A stretch of DNA of 49,309 nucleotides from assembly GCA_029974595.1 (NCBI GenBank), contig JARKRC010000036.1:1-49309 (forward strand), in the 5' to 3' direction. The stretch is from Ereboglobus sp. GTDB taxonomy: Bacteria > Verrucomicrobiota > Verrucomicrobiia > Opitutales > Opitutaceae. The notes beneath the pieces are model-generated. The model searched no databases. It was not told the DNA's origin and saw only the letters and a program-made list of their open reading frames with translations. The position numbers were made by a program, and so were the translations under genes. Shown piece after piece: positions 14,196-32,250 of the stretch. The stretch's first letter is position 1, and each line of letters begins with the position of its first letter.

Positions 14196-14387
14196 GTGGC
14201 ACGGGCGACTCGCCCGTGTTTTCCGAACATGGGCTGGCGCCCATGCCTCCCGAACGGCTCCGACATCTGCGAGCATCTGTGTCCATCTACGGTTCAGAAT
14301 CTCCAGCCTCTGTGTGCGATTTCGGGGCAATCGCGGATTACGTCTTTTGCCGCTGTCCTAAAATTGACAAAACACCACCTTCTCTGA
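14196..14387 (+). repeat. Composite intergenic repeat, copy B
   Basis: It begins GTGGCACGGGCGACTCGCCC, passes through a second palindrome (atgggctggcgcccat) and a 'catctgcgagcatctgtgtc' block, and ends in the taaaattgacaaaacaccac segment. Block order matches 177-353. Its middle block is a degenerate relative of the inverted ends of the GxxExxY module at 29739-30230. Confidence 0.8.
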
Positions 14388-27866: not shown

Positions 27867-28126
27867 TTGGCGTCGTCCACGACGCCAAGGACGTGGTTGC
27901 GGAGGGGGCTGTGTTTGTCGCGCACGAGTTCGCGGGTGCGGGAGCCGTCGGTGCTGAGGAGGACGCGCTGGTGCAGCGCCGCGCCGAGGGTGTCGGTTGC
28001 GAGGATGGGCGCGCCGGTGTCGTTGCCGTTTTCGTCGAGCGGCTGGCATATGACGGTGCGCGTGCCGCGCATGCTGGGATGGCACGCGGGAGCGATGATG
28101 GTTCCGTCTATGCGGCAAAGATTCAT
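27851..28126 (-). CDS. BMC-P pentameric vertex protein 2
   Basis: A 91-aa EutN/CcmL protein: MNLCRIDGTIIAPACHPSMR, the RTVICQPLDENGNDTGAPIL strand with the conserved 'QPL' position, ATDTLGAALHQRVLLSTDGS, and the C-terminal VLGVVDDAKEI. Sequence identity with the other two is clearly low, so the three vertex proteins are old paralogues. The IKK tail is encoded by the repeat arm, so the C-terminus was reshaped by the repeat. It sits between two hairpins. Confidence 0.9.
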   Translation of the reverse strand: MNLCRIDGTIIAPACHPSMRGTRTVICQPLDENGNDTGAPILATDTLGAALHQRVLLSTDGSRTRELVRDKHSPLRNHVLGVVDDAKEIKK

Positions 28127-28132
28127 GATGGT

Positions 28133-28234
28133 ATTTTCGATTTTGGATTCTCGATTTTCGATTGGGGAGCTTCCGCTCCGGCTCGCTTTTCTTATCGCGC
28201 GGCAGCGCGTAATCGAAAATCGAGAATCGAAAAT
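28133..28234. repeat. Intercistronic hairpin (BMC-P 2 / aldehyde dehydrogenase)
   Basis: ATTCTCGATTTTCGATT (28147-28163) and its exact reverse complement (28211-28227) form a 17-bp perfect stem, extended imperfectly outward. A GC-rich loop holds GGAGCttccGCTCC. It ends 5 bp before the dehydrogenase stop codon. Confidence 0.8.
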
Positions 28235-28238
28235 TTTA

Positions 28239-29699
28239 TCAGTAGATTTTCAGCGCGTCCACGAGGACGCAGCGGCGGGTTCTTGTGAAGGTTTGCGGGT
28301 TGGTGATGCCTTCGCCGGTCGTGGTGGCGATGCTGTAGCTCAGATAGCCTTCGCCGCCAAGTCCGAGACCGGTCGTGCTGGGGCCGTTTTTCACGAAGAG
28401 CGTCGTGTCGAGTTCGCGGGCCATCTGCGTCATGCGATCGACGTTGAGGGAGTGGATGATTGCGGAATGCTTGTAGCCGTGCTCGGATTTTTTCGCGAGG
28501 GCGATGCCTTCTTCGATTGTTTTGACGCGGACGATGGGGAGCATCGGCATCATTTGCTCTTCCATCACGAAGGGATGGTCGGGATCAGTTTCGCCGAAGA
28601 GGAGCGGTGTGGCGTCGGGGAGATTCAGGCCGGCGCGCGAAGCGAGGACGCTGGCGTTTTTGCCGACGAGTTCGCGGTTGAGCACGGGATGCGAACAGCC
28701 GCCTGCGTCAGGTTTCATGGTGAAGACTTCCTTGGAGAGTTTTTCGATTTGCGCGGGGAGAAGGCGCACGGCCCCGGCTTTTTCAAGGGAGCGGACGAAG
28801 GCGTTGGCGACTTTGTCGAGGACGAAGACCTGTTTTTCGCCGATGCAGAGGAGGTTGTTGTCGAAGCCCGCGCCGTAGATGATGTCTTTCGCGGCTTTGT
28901 CGGTGCAGACGGTGTCGTCAACGAGGACAGGCGGGTTCCCGGGGCCGGCGCAGATGGCGCGCTTGCCGGATTTCATGGCGGCGTTCACGACGCCGGGGCC
29001 GCCGGTGACGACGAGGAGGTTGACGAGGGGCGATTTGCAGAGGGCGTCGAAGGATTCGAGCGTCGGTTTCTCGATGGTGCAGACGAGGTTTTCGATGCCG
29101 GTGGCGGCTTGGATGGCTTCGTTGTAGGTGCGGATGGCGAGGGCCGCGGAGCGCGCGCCGCCGGGGTGCGGGTTGAAGAGGATGGAGTTGCCGGCGGCGA
29201 CGGCGTTGATGATGTTGCCGGAGAGGGTGGGGACGGAGTGGGTGACGGGAAGGATGGCCGCGACGACGCCGAAGGGCGTGTATTCCTCGTGCATGAGGCC
29301 GTGGTCGCCGCTGAGTGCGTAAGGGCGTATCCATTCGACGCCGGGGACGAGCGGGACGAGGTGGAGCTTGGCGATTTTGTGTTCGAGGCGGCCGATCTTG
29401 GTTTCCTCGAACTCGAACTTGCCCCAGGCGTCGGCGTTGGCGATGGCGAGTTTCTTGACGATGTCGATGACTTGTTTGCGGGCGGCGACGCCCTTGGCGC
29501 GGAGTTGTTCGAAGGCTTTTTGCGCGGCGGCGGCGGCGGCCGGGACGTCCTGAAAGATGCCATGGCGCGGGCTGCTGGTCGCGGAGGAGCTGACAATCGC
29601 GGGCGCTGTGGCGGCGGGAGCGCCGCTGGCGCTGCGGATGTTGCGCACAACTTCGGAGACAATGGAGCGGACCAGATTTTCGTCTATTTGAAGAGCCAT
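28239..29699 (-). CDS. CoA-acylating aldehyde dehydrogenase (PduP/EutE-like, BMC cargo)
   Basis: A 486-aa enzyme that would oxidise lactaldehyde (or propanal/acetaldehyde) with NAD and CoA to the acyl-CoA. The catalytic Cys is C285 in GAGFDNNLLCIGEKQ, with the usual PduP-type context. The nucleotide-binding region has ILFNPHPGGARSAA and VVTGGPGVVNAAM, and the end has GLGGEGYLSYSIATTTGEGI. The N-terminal helix IDENLVRSIVSEVVRNIRS followed by an Ala/Pro linker is a classic encapsulation peptide, so it should lie inside the shell. It follows the GxxExxY module, which separates it from the upstream shell gene. Confidence 0.95.
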   Translation of the reverse strand: MALQIDENLVRSIVSEVVRNIRSASGAPAATAPAIVSSSATSSPRHGIFQDVPAAAAAAQKAFEQLRAKGVAARKQVIDIVKKLAIANADAWGKFEFEETKIGRLEHKIAKLHLVPLVPGVEWIRPYALSGDHGLMHEEYTPFGVVAAILPVTHSVPTLSGNIINAVAAGNSILFNPHPGGARSAALAIRTYNEAIQAATGIENLVCTIEKPTLESFDALCKSPLVNLLVVTGGPGVVNAAMKSGKRAICAGPGNPPVLVDDTVCTDKAAKDIIYGAGFDNNLLCIGEKQVFVLDKVANAFVRSLEKAGAVRLLPAQIEKLSKEVFTMKPDAGGCSHPVLNRELVGKNASVLASRAGLNLPDATPLLFGETDPDHPFVMEEQMMPMLPIVRVKTIEEGIALAKKSEHGYKHSAIIHSLNVDRMTQMARELDTTLFVKNGPSTTGLGLGGEGYLSYSIATTTGEGITNPQTFTRTRRCVLVDALKIY

Positions 29700-29738
29700 T
29701 GGAATCGTTGTTTTCGTTTAAGTTTTTAAGGGAGTTTT

Positions 29739-30230
29739 TTTAACCGCAGATGAACACAGATGGACGCAGATGTCGGAATTGTTGGCGCGGGTTTATCCGG
29801 CGGTTGCTGGCGTGAGGATAATGCGTTCCCACTCCAGCTTGGATTTCTTGAAATTGATGATGAGGCCCACAGGGAGGCGCGTGATGCGGAGGTAGTTGAT
29901 CATCTGGCCGCGTTCTTGATCGGTGATTCGGTCGATGACTTTGGTGTCAATGATAATGCTGTCGTAAACGATGAGGTCGGGAATGTATTCAGCTATCCGG
30001 ACGTCTTTATAAATAACGGGAAATATTTTTTGCTGATTGCAGGGGATGTTTCGAAGTTTGAACTCTACAACCAAGGCGTTCTCGTAGGGTTTTTCGTGAA
30101 GGCCGTGACCGAGCAGATTGAGCACTTCCATCGCGCAGCCTATGATTTCATAGGTTTCTTTTTGGCCGCTTTGTTTTGCGGTTTGGATGGTTTGATTATC
30201 TGCGTCCATCTGTGTTCATCTGCGGTTAAA
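29739..30230. mobile_element. Putative minimal mobile module with 33-bp perfect inverted ends
   Basis: 29739-29771 and 30198-30230 are exact reverse complements over 33 bp (left end TTTAACCGCAGATGAACACA). They enclose a single gene of the GxxExxY family that fills the 492-bp unit. The right inverted end contains that gene's start codon. It splits the otherwise compact microcompartment operon between a shell gene and the dehydrogenase gene. No target-site duplication was recognised. The inverted ends and position are seen; mobility is inferred. Confidence 0.65.
29793..30209 (-). CDS. GxxExxY protein, PD-(D/E)XK nuclease-like
   Basis: A 138-aa protein. The family motif is G36-LH-E39-KP-Y42 (GHGLHEKPYENALVVEF). 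A nuclease-type core follows, IPDLIVYDSIIIDTKVID, i.e. P77-D78, nine residues, then D88-T-K90, which fits PD-x(n)-(D/E)xK. The C-terminal INFKKSKLEWERI is also typical. The family is widespread in repeat-rich genomes and its role is not settled. Its N-terminal MDAD comes from the right inverted end, so the gene and the ends form one unit. It has no evident function in the microcompartment and reads with the operon. Confidence 0.88.
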   Translation of the reverse strand: MDADNQTIQTAKQSGQKETYEIIGCAMEVLNLLGHGLHEKPYENALVVEFKLRNIPCNQQKIFPVIYKDVRIAEYIPDLIVYDSIIIDTKVIDRITDQERGQMINYLRITRLPVGLIINFKKSKLEWERIILTPATAG

Positions 30231-30244
30231 CACGGCTTGGAAAA

Positions 30245-30544
30245 CTAGGCTGCGCGCTTGCCCAGCACCTCGACGGTATCGACGAGGCCGACGACGGCGG
30301 CGTCGATGGGGAGGGCTTTCATGCCGGCGGCCATGCGCGCGCTGCTGCCCTGGCAGAAGAGGACGAGATCGCCCATGCCGGCGCCGAGGGCGTCAACCGC
30401 CACGACGGTGCTGCCGCCGGGCTTGAGTTGGGCGGGGTTCGCTTCGTCGGGAAACATCGGGCGAAGGACCAGGAGTTTGCGGCCTTTCATGGTTTCGTCT
30501 TTTTTGGTGGAAACCACGGAGCCTATGACGCGGGCGAGAAACAT
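30245..30544 (-). CDS. BMC-P pentameric vertex protein 3
   Basis: A 99-aa EutN/CcmL protein: MFLARVIGSVVSTKKDETMK, GRKLLVLRPMFPDE, and the most canonical loop VVAVDALGAGMGDLVLFCQG, SSARMA (as in EutN/CcmL), ending AVVGLVDTVEVL. I chose ATG 30544 rather than the longer frame, since upstream residues translate an intercistronic repeat. This is the closest of the three to classical EutN/CcmL. It lies 15 bp downstream of the right end of the GxxExxY module. Confidence 0.95.
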   Translation of the reverse strand: MFLARVIGSVVSTKKDETMKGRKLLVLRPMFPDEANPAQLKPGGSTVVAVDALGAGMGDLVLFCQGSSARMAAGMKALPIDAAVVGLVDTVEVLGKRAA

Positions 30545-30547
30545 GGT

Positions 30548-30586
30548 GAGAAGAAGTAGCGAGTAGTGAGTAGCGAGTAGGGCGCG
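30548..30586. repeat. Purine-rich direct-repeat patch between BMC-P 3 and BMC-H 3
   Basis: gaagtagcgagtagtgagta followed by another gcgagtag unit is built of 'gtagYgagta' units. It is similar in style to the arms of the other intercistronic repeats but without a clear second arm. Confidence 0.5.
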
Positions 30587-30667
30587 GCATTGGATGCGCG
30601 CGCCCGTTGGCTGACGGGTCAGGCAGGCCGGGAGCCTGCGCTGGGACGGCACGCGTGCGCCGTCGTG

Positions 30668-30961
30668 TTATTTTTTTGCGGCGGCGGCTTTCGGGAGCAC
30701 GGCGGCGACGTCTTCGTGGGGACGGGCGATGACTTGCACGCTGACGACTTCGCCGTAGGTGCGGGCCGCGGCGGAGCCGGCCTCGGTCGCGGCCTTGACG
30801 GCGGCAACGTCGCCGGTGATGACGGCGGTCACGAGCGCGTTGCCGACTTGTTTCATCGGGCCGACGAGCGTAACGTTGGCGGATTTGAGCATCGCGTCCA
30901 CACCGGCGACGAGCGCGGTGAGGCCACGGGTTTCGAGGAGTCCAAGGGCGGATTGTGCCAT
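30668..30961 (-). CDS. BMC-H hexameric shell protein 3
   Basis: A 97-aa single BMC domain: [20 protein letters not shown] (usual 'ALG-E-RG' start), [20 protein letters not shown], the pore loop [20 protein letters not shown], and [18 protein letters not shown] followed by an Ala/Lys tail. Hexamers tile the facets. The pore loop reads V-G-N-A instead of the common I-G-G/S-G, which should change the central pore. It lies between the kinase gene and BMC-P 3. Confidence 0.95.
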
Positions 30962-31053
30962 GATGTTTTTTAGGTGGGTTGAGTGTTGGTGGTTGTGGTT
31001 GAAGAGAGTGTGGCGCGGGCGACTTAGGTCGATTTAAGTCGATGTGAGTCGAT

Positions 31054-32250
31054 TTAAGTCGTGGATGCCTTTTCGAGCGAAGCGATCAGCCGCGCGGTTT
31101 CGCGGGCGACGACGAGTTCTTCGTTGGCCGGGATGACGAGGACTTGCGTGCGCGAATCGGAGGCGGCGAGGTTTTGCTCGGGGGAGCCTGCGGCGTTTTT
31201 GGCGGGGTCGAGCGCGAGGCCGAGCCCGGCGAGGTTTTCGCACACGGCGGCGCGGAGCCATGCGTTGTTTTCGCCGATGCCGGCGGTGAAAACGAGCGCG
31301 TCGCAGCCGCCCATCTCCACCCAGAAGGCGCCGATCCAGTGACGTATTGATTTTATGAATACATCGATCGCAAGCTGCGCGCGGGCGTCGCCCTTGTCGG
31401 CGGCGGTTTTGATGTCGCGCAGGTCGTTGCTGATGCCGGAGAGACCGAGAAGGCCGGATTCTTTGGAGAGTTGTTTCTCGGCGTCGGCGAGGGAGAGGCC
31501 GAGGCGGCGCATCGCGCAGGGAATCCCGGCGGAGTCGAGGTCGCCGACGCGGTTGTTTTGCGGAAGGCCGGATTGCGGGCTCAAGCCCATGCTGGCGCCG
31601 ATCGCGACGCCGTCGCGGATGCCGGTCACGGAGCTGGAGCCGCCGAGGTGGCAGGAAATCACGCGGAATGGGGAATGCGGAGTGCGGGATGCGGAATGGT
31701 TTGGATCCGCGATATAAAGGTTGCGGGCGCGTTCGGCGATGTCGGCGCGGCCGAGGAGATCGGCGCTGCGTTCGGCGACGAACTTGTGGCTCGCGCCGTG
31801 AAAACCGTAGCGGCGGATGCCGGCTTGATACCACGTTTCTGGGACGGCGTAGCGGTGCGCGCTTGGGGGCACCCATTGGTAGAAGGCGGTCTCGAAGAGC
31901 GCGACGCGAGGCACGTTGGGAAGGCGTTCGCGGAAGGTGCGGATGCCGGCCGCGTAGGGCGGATTGTGCGCGGGCGCGAGGTCGGCGGTGTCGAGGAGCG
32001 CCTGCTCGACTTTTTCGTCGGCAAGGAGGCAGCCGGTGATGCCGCCGCCGAGCACGGTTTTGAAGCCGACGGCGTCGATGGTCCCGTGTCCGGCGGAGGC
32101 GAGCTCGTCCATCGCTTGGTCGATGACCGCGCCGTAGTCGGTGACGCGTTCAAAACCGCCGCGCGCGAGCATGTCGGCGCGTTCGCCTTCGATGCGATAA
32201 AGGCGGTATTTGAACGAGGTGGAACCGAGATTGGCGACGAGGACGCGCAT
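31054..32250 (-). CDS. Acetate/propionate-kinase family kinase of the microcompartment operon
   Basis: A 398-aa ASKHA kinase: N-terminal ANLGSTSFKYRLYRI, HNPPYAAGI, VALFETAFYQWVPP, RRYGFHGASHKFVAE, the HLGGSSSVTGIRDGVAIGAS phosphate-binding region, and FTAGIGENNAWLRAAV. It would convert the acyl-phosphate made by PduL (lactyl-, acetyl- or propionyl-phosphate) to the acid with ATP formation. It is divergent from housekeeping AckA (NLGSTS for N-GSSS), as expected for the compartment-linked form. An insert of about 14 residues (around 182-196, HSASRTPHSPFR) is encoded by a repeat patch and sits just before the conserved VISCHLGG strand; whether activity survives is unknown. Confidence 0.9.
   Translation of the reverse strand: MRVLVANLGSTSFKYRLYRIEGERADMLARGGFERVTDYGAVIDQAMDELASAGHGTIDAVGFKTVLGGGITGCLLADEKVEQALLDTADLAPAHNPPYAAGIRTFRERLPNVPRVALFETAFYQWVPPSAHRYAVPETWYQAGIRRYGFHGASHKFVAERSADLLGRADIAERARNLYIADPNHSASRTPHSPFRVISCHLGGSSSVTGIRDGVAIGASMGLSPQSGLPQNNRVGDLDSAGIPCAMRRLGLSLADAEKQLSKESGLLGLSGISNDLRDIKTAADKGDARAQLAIDVFIKSIRHWIGAFWVEMGGCDALVFTAGIGENNAWLRAAVCENLAGLGLALDPAKNAAGSPEQNLAASDSRTQVLVIPANEELVVARETARLIASLEKASTT
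31663..31699. repeat. Short repeat inserted in the kinase coding region
   Basis: gcggaatggggaatgcggag, then tgcgggatgcggaatgg, is made of 'ggaatgcgg' units and preserves the reading frame. A related patch at 33747-33780 lies upstream of the PduL start. Confidence 0.65.

Follow-up and report, generated by a model that had tools for sequence, protein, structure and literature searches.

GxxExxY nuclease genes and their inverted ends: a candidate REPtron-like repeat system in Ereboglobus and other genomes

Among described systems, the REPtron, in which a RAYT (TnpA-REP) gene is found together with REP sequences and REPINs (PMC3116915, PMC8266576, PMC3733652; see also PMC4596501), offers the nearest comparison for the locus reported here. 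In the excerpts of these papers used here, REPtrons contain a gene flanked by repeats whose further copies are scattered over the genome, mostly in intergenic regions and as inverted doublets. Repeat abundance correlates with gene presence, and the genes are repeat-specific, conserved and apparently vertically inherited. All of these features have a counterpart in the GxxExxY system, with two genomes (G002 and G003, see below) as exceptions to the correlation of repeats and genes. The differences lie in the enzyme, which is a HuH (Y1) transposase in REPtrons and a PD-(D/E)XK nuclease here, and in the repeat itself. While REP sequences are described in these excerpts as palindromic with a GTAG tag, the GxxExxY arm is built from direct 7-bp units in 8-10-bp steps behind an AACC-like tip, and the arm studied here contains neither GTAG nor CTAC and has a longest self-complementary score of 4. 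In the TIRtron/TIRYT arrangement, as outlined in the excerpt of PMC3733652, a nuclease/transposase gene likewise lies between gene-specific terminal inverted repeats, some of which are dispersed; the enzyme is unrelated, however, and in the GxxExxY system the type of end goes with the protein clade, and does so across phyla. Insertion sequences and their MITEs share the terminal inverted repeats, the single gene and the short gene-less derivatives that keep a gene end, but here no DDE or HuH domain and no target duplication were found and gene copies are few (1-11 per genome where present).

Rpn proteins (YhgA-like, PF04754) are likewise small PD-(D/E)XK proteins and are reported to have once been named transposases; the protein described here has no Pfam match to PF04754. 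The GxxExxY family (TIGR04256/PF13366) is named by its motif only. Two papers of the open full-text literature mention it, one for a gene of that name in an algal virus (PMC12085832), the other for a domain assignment next to a reverse transcriptase (PMC8934634). Within that open full-text literature no link between GxxExxY genes and flanking repeats was found, and neither the arm sequences nor the family accession turned up a paper of relevance.

A single GxxExxY gene between inverted ends in a microcompartment operon

The module lies in a stretch of 49,309 nt from Ereboglobus sp. (GCA_029974595.1, contig JARKRC010000036.1), here called the window, between genes for EutN_CcmL (PF03319) and an aldehyde dehydrogenase (PF00171), with a BMC-domain gene farther out (Table 1). 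Its two arms are exact inverted copies of 33 bp with a spacing of 426 nt, whereas 200 two-base-block shuffles of the segment gave inverted matches of at most 11. Together with the family matches given below, this confirms the original prediction of perfect inverted ends around one PD-(D/E)XK-like gene. The first 12 nt of the reading frame, ATGGACGCAGAT, encode MDAD and lie inside the upstream arm, and the ATG of the arm is the sole in-frame ATG, GTG or TTG between arm and domain. The idea that one end supplies the start codon is therefore correct for the window gene. It does not extend to the system as a whole, since the start codon lies solely in the arm at 12 of the 98 loci with arms, and an arm-borne start was discarded as a defining trait. 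Arm-like copies occur at many sites of the source genome, and no Rfam family matched at the gathering threshold within positions 28800-31200. A different dispersed repeat of ~100 bp is found 3' of the dehydrogenase gene (window 28125-28240), with dozens of matches across the four genomes of the genus.

Table 1 Features of the GxxExxY module and related arm copies in the window
Feature	Position	Strand	Remarks
3' arm, downstream of the GxxExxY gene	29739..29771	+	Tip TTTAACC outermost; 10-bp period
Units of the 3' arm after the tip	29739..29771	+	CGCAGAT-GAA-CACAGAT-GGA-CGCAGAT
5' arm, upstream of the gene	30198..30230	-	Perfect inverted copy, tip outward
GxxExxY gene	29793..30209	-	138 aa; PD-(D/E)XK nuclease fold
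Overlap of arm and reading frame	30198..30209	-	ATG GAC GCA GAT (MDAD)
3' arm with last codons and stop	29737..29803	+	~90% identical dispersed copies in G003, as one end of gene-less elements
Single dispersed arm copy	14259..14294	-	89% match

The window protein is a member of the GxxExxY family by score (133 bits against TIGR04256, cut-off 35; 122 bits against PF13366 PDDEXK_3, cut-off 22) and by motif. The motif, in the region of G36-H39, reads GHGLHEKPY and is followed by PD at 77-78 and DTK at 88-90. Across 40 sequences D78 is invariant and E88 and K90 are conserved in at least 90%, with D at position 88 in the window protein. A Pfam scan returned PDDEXK_3 and a sub-threshold match to Phage_endo_I only, with no DDE, HuH/Y1, serine or tyrosine recombinase domain. 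The structure model is confident (pLDDT 91, pTM 0.82), and VIA-align matched it best to 4ic1 (SSO0001, Z 9.4), with the archaeal Holliday junction resolvase Hjc at Z 6.8. Foldseek against the PDB gave nothing at E <= 0.001, the best match being lambda exonuclease (1.1e-3), and solved relatives were not significant by sequence (E at least 0.39) or by profile (E at least 1.2, T7 endonuclease I among them). As modelled, the protein has a PD-(D/E)XK superfamily fold, with no finer placement.

Selection on the genes is strongly purifying. Twelve pairs were tried, of which three had a stop inside the matched stretch and one was saturated and thus gave no value; of the 8 measurable close pairs, 7 had a dN/dS of 0.04-0.11, and the remaining one (L016/L020), whose members are almost identical, had 0.33. 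These low ratios indicate that the genes are kept for function. That this function is defence, or that of a toxin-antitoxin nuclease, is highly improbable. Rpn, another small PD-(D/E)XK family, is reported in the excerpt of PMC10327210 to comprise toxin-antitoxin anti-phage proteins, but PADLOC returned 0 families for the window protein up to E = 10, and no regular partner gene was seen in a non-systematic look at the loci viewed. PHROGs gave 0 matches, and GxxExxY was found in 0 phages, 8 plasmid records and 1 confirmed IMG/VR locus. In the viral fold library BFVD there were two close fold matches, G8DDC4 and R4TGU4 from a Halogranum virus; going by such fold matches and one algal-virus annotation, GxxExxY-like proteins are present in a few large viruses.

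Arms at other GxxExxY loci and their relation to the protein

The gene-plus-ends system is widespread and larger than the single module first noted. The six genes found by PF13366 in the source genome each lie between inverted arms, and the six unit sequences are all different (CACGGAG, CGCRGAG, ACAGGAT, CGCAAAG, CGCGGAA and CGCAGAT). Each locus was scored by how well its two 300-bp flanks match in inverted orientation, the best match being taken. Of 42 loci from the own genome, genus and family, 27 reached at least 16; among mismatched pairs 8 of 400 did so, and among pairs taken from stretches ~1 kb away 0 of 40. Among named GTDB loci, which come from many phyla and one Methanoperedens archaeon, 38 of 77 did so (controls 6/600 and 0/58), and in close relatives (the 23 closest in the family, at 56-77% identity, plus six more) all 29 loci scored at least 15. 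All three sets consist of best-scoring loci and are not random samples; of 80 GTDB loci, 77 had enough flank for the arm score and 78 for the unit arrays described next, and one locus (L032, identical to L087) is present in two sets. About half of the GTDB loci fall below 16, and at 18 of 149 loci a two-unit array is missing from both sides; the two facts count against a REPtron-like reading.

The arms follow a common grammar, with an AACC-like tip on the outside, behind which units of the CRCNRAN kind recur at intervals of 8-10 bp. In close relatives this mostly takes the form of AACC and three C[AG]C[AG][AG]AT units in 10-bp steps. Upstream units run toward the gene with the tip outside, and the downstream arm is the mirror image. 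At least one correctly oriented two-unit array was found at 37 of 42 family, 66 of 78 GTDB and 28 of 29 close-relative loci. In the same three sets, upstream arrays lay on the correct strand at 33, 49 and 26 loci and on the opposite strand at 7, 13 and 2, while downstream arrays were correctly oriented at 35, 58 and 28 loci and opposite at 12, 13 and 3. The two strands of farther stretches gave 5 and 1 of 82, 1 and 6 of 136, and 2 and 1 of 55. In at least one locus of good score (L040) the best-matching arms show the opposite polarity. The suggested check of whether the same ends flank other GxxExxY genes turned out positive for inverted ends and negative for an identical sequence, as each gene has its own version of one pattern. 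Steps of 8-10 bp place the units on about one helix face, a layout on which copies of a small protein could form an array.

End type tracks the protein. Over the 98 loci with arms, the similarity of arms and that of proteins were correlated (Spearman 0.32), compared with 0.06 for flanks outside the arms. Restriction to pairs with less than 0.6 of full similarity gave 0.19 for arms and -0.02 for outer flanks, and restriction to less than 0.5 gave 0.11 and -0.02. Permutation gave p 0.001-0.002 for the correlation of arms and protein, and eight unit labels (five labels were set by hand) required 22 changes on the protein tree against a shuffled mean of 53 (0 of 200 shuffles as low), in both cases with shared ancestry left in place by the randomization. 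A split into AT- and AG-ending units needed 4 changes. One label, AAG, is unclustered on the tree (118 of 500 shuffles as low), which counts against the REPtron-like reading. The ACAGGAT genes L011, L101 and L111 form one clade, and another clade with AACCACGAATTAACACGAAT-like arms consists of L064, L065 and L067, in records named Cloacimonadota, Neomarinimicrobiota and Gallionellaceae. The part of the original prediction by which ends and gene belong together is upheld by this match between end type and protein.

Dispersed copies of the ends and a possible mechanism

Copies of the ends were counted in 100 genomes of the family with three unit types (AGAT, GAAT and GGAT), and reversed-pattern controls were near zero. 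In the 15 gene-less genomes the median was 0 copies (range 0-7), compared with 11 in the 85 genomes with a gene (p = 5e-7); 9 of these 85 have no copy of the three patterns, which again counts against a REPtron-like system. In 24 genomes with a window-clade gene, for which end types were assigned by eye, the gene's own end type made up 0.58 of the copies on average as opposed to 0.38 after shuffling (p = 2e-4) and was the commonest type in 15. In several of the genomes where it was not, there is a second gene, which has CGCGGAT ends. Beyond the family, 6 of 8 genomes that carry AT-type genes have CACGAAT copies, as does 1 of 11 that carry AG-type genes. Exceptions, which count against the REPtron-like reading, are G002 with 23 AGAT copies and G003 with 49, in which no AT-type gene was found, the G003 assembly being 65% complete.

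Neighbouring arms within 200 bp formed 33 pairs with tips outward, 1 reversed pair and 0 on the same strand, as counted from six position lists of five chosen genomes, two of the lists being partial (40/43 and 40/92) and that of G075 left out. In the source genome, 5 of 7 viewed copies consist of two 30-nt arms separated by 23-27 nt.

If another enzyme such as a RAYT moved the repeats, GxxExxY genes would be mere cargo. RAYT genes with long flanking inverted repeats have been described (PMC3733652, in the excerpt used), and the role of GxxExxY in movement is one that we infer. End type nevertheless follows the GxxExxY clade across phyla, and genomes without the gene are nearly free of copies, so that a passenger role is quite improbable.

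Instead, the system probably works like a REPtron that is built on an unrelated PD-(D/E)XK nuclease. The module would then be the gene-bearing copy of a short repeat family, in which a GxxExxY nuclease of ~125-140 aa may recognise its own ends, that is, the AACC-like tip with two to four 7-bp units. With roughly one unit to each helix turn, a single arm could accommodate several protomers side by side, and two arms with tips outward would constitute the unit that is propagated. With the gene inside the arms, such a unit could serve as an autonomous or helper copy, while those with 10-140 bp inside would represent dispersed non-autonomous copies. The nuclease might introduce a nick or a cut at the tips or close to them, and the host's replication or repair machinery would copy the interval to a new intergenic site. 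Since each protein clade has its own unit sequence, several such systems, six in the source genome, could exist side by side in one genome.

A broader reading is put forward with more reserve. GxxExxY modules may perhaps be the first class of elements, whether mobile or domesticated, whose driver is a stand-alone PD-(D/E)XK nuclease reading short iterated units in the ends, the ubiquitous dispersed repeats with 8-10-bp periods in Verrucomicrobia, Planctomycetes, Bacteroidetes, Chloroflexi and other phyla being their non-autonomous copies and the natural diversity of clades and units a ready-made recognition code. The data suggest an overlooked class of tiny mobile or semi-tamed elements. A large family without assigned function and common, unexplained intergenic repeats would become one system with a testable mechanism. 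If this is true, a REPtron-like element has arisen with an unrelated nuclease, often with several specificities per genome, and the pairing of clades and unit sequences offers naturally occurring data from which to learn how so small a nuclease reads DNA.

Sites in relatives and gene-less derivatives

Sites were compared with the relatives G001, G002 and G003 by a composite query that covered 6 of 14 prepared sites, two of which (L195 and L010) had no useful match. At the gyrA site the source genome has a module, G001 and G002 have an inverted element of another type, and G003 has 2.1 kb of other DNA. At the uvrA-like site the module of the source genome is replaced by a solo end in all three relatives, and at gatA/gatB a module in G002 corresponds to a gene-less CACGGAG pair in the source genome. 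A dispersed-pair site (L192) holds another, degenerate pair in G001 and G002 and none in G003. Elements of different types seem to use such sites repeatedly, a pattern that is compatible with movement or conversion and proves neither. The gyrA-site element of G001 and G002 (L206, L207) has GGAGTC/GGAAGTC-like repeats and is perhaps a further unit type with its own nuclease, and the ~2.1 kb upstream of gyrA in G003 (L208, C262:2700-5200) appear by eye to contain a DNA methyltransferase gene and a restriction-type gene.

At the microcompartment site, a distance of ~1.6 kb separates the EutN and dehydrogenase genes of three congeners (L179, L180 and L181) and holds a PAP2/GDPD gene, which is absent from the source genome and has no repeats around it. 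A clean empty site at this operon is ruled out by that gene, and the site does not represent a simple insertion. The module had been proposed to split the shell gene from the dehydrogenase gene. Its neighbours are as proposed, but with the PAP2/GDPD gene in between in all three congeners it splits no adjacency seen in relatives. Neither is the module fixed at this site, as 0 of the 3 congeners carry it there. A search for empty sites and target duplications had been suggested as a check, and no clean empty allele and no clear target duplication were found at the four orthologous sites and the microcompartment site. Target duplications at own-genome pairs and G003 elements were not convincing either. 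The proposal was that gene and ends move or are maintained together; for movement, the sites compared show no such traces and no insertion was caught, which counts against the REPtron-like reading.

These sites bear most directly on the main rival of the REPtron-like reading, namely homing or gene conversion, in which the nuclease would cut pre-existing arms, the module would be copied in by homologous repair and the arms would spread by other means. The solo ends at the uvrA-like site, the gene-less pair at gatA/gatB and the lack of target duplications at the compared sites speak for homing into existing ends. On the other hand, the ends at gatB differ in subtype between the two genomes and the gyrA site carries another element type in G001 and G002, which indicates that the ends are exchanged too and not the gene alone. 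Homing is rather unlikely, and the REPtron-like reading is retained.

Many copies look vertically inherited, since at mutL and near alaS congeners again carry modules with their genes and matching end types, which counts against the REPtron-like reading. By eye, five modules (L009, L011, L012, L013 and L015) lie immediately upstream of alaS, an uvrA-like gene, gyrA, mutL and gatB and share the orientation of these genes, and a preference of modules for house-keeping operons is possible. In Bacteroides finegoldii a module (L200) lies between radA and the gene of a FAD-dependent protein. An immobile regulatory or house-keeping nuclease, with arms that act as operator or binding sites in autoregulation, repair or chromosome organisation, would agree with the strong purifying selection and with positions directly upstream of gyrA, mutL, alaS and gatB (translated flanks, by eye). 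It remains improbable, as arms vary between genes of one genome, relatives differ in the element type at the same site, and the copies include inverted pairs that face outward as well as derivatives that retain part of the gene.

Such derivatives were found in G003, a genome of the same genus, as dispersed elements of ~150 bp with one end ~90% identical to the 3' end of the window module. Ten copies were read, of which nine have an opposite arm 128-160 bp away and one is cut by the contig end. Inside the arm, the elements share 25 of 26 nt with the 3' end of the module, including the stop codon (p = 0.0005). A shared 5' interior was not supported, as the sequence beside the 5' arm is not recognisably that of the module (p = 0.81), which counts against the REPtron-like reading. 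At L189, a direct repeat of ~15 nt was discounted as a target duplication because similar AATGGTT..-like strings also separate neighbouring elements of the clusters. In these G003 clusters (L183-L190), gene-less elements with various end types are arranged in series, with a recurring AATGGTTCGGTTTT-like string between them. This string, present on both sides at L189, could hold a target rule.
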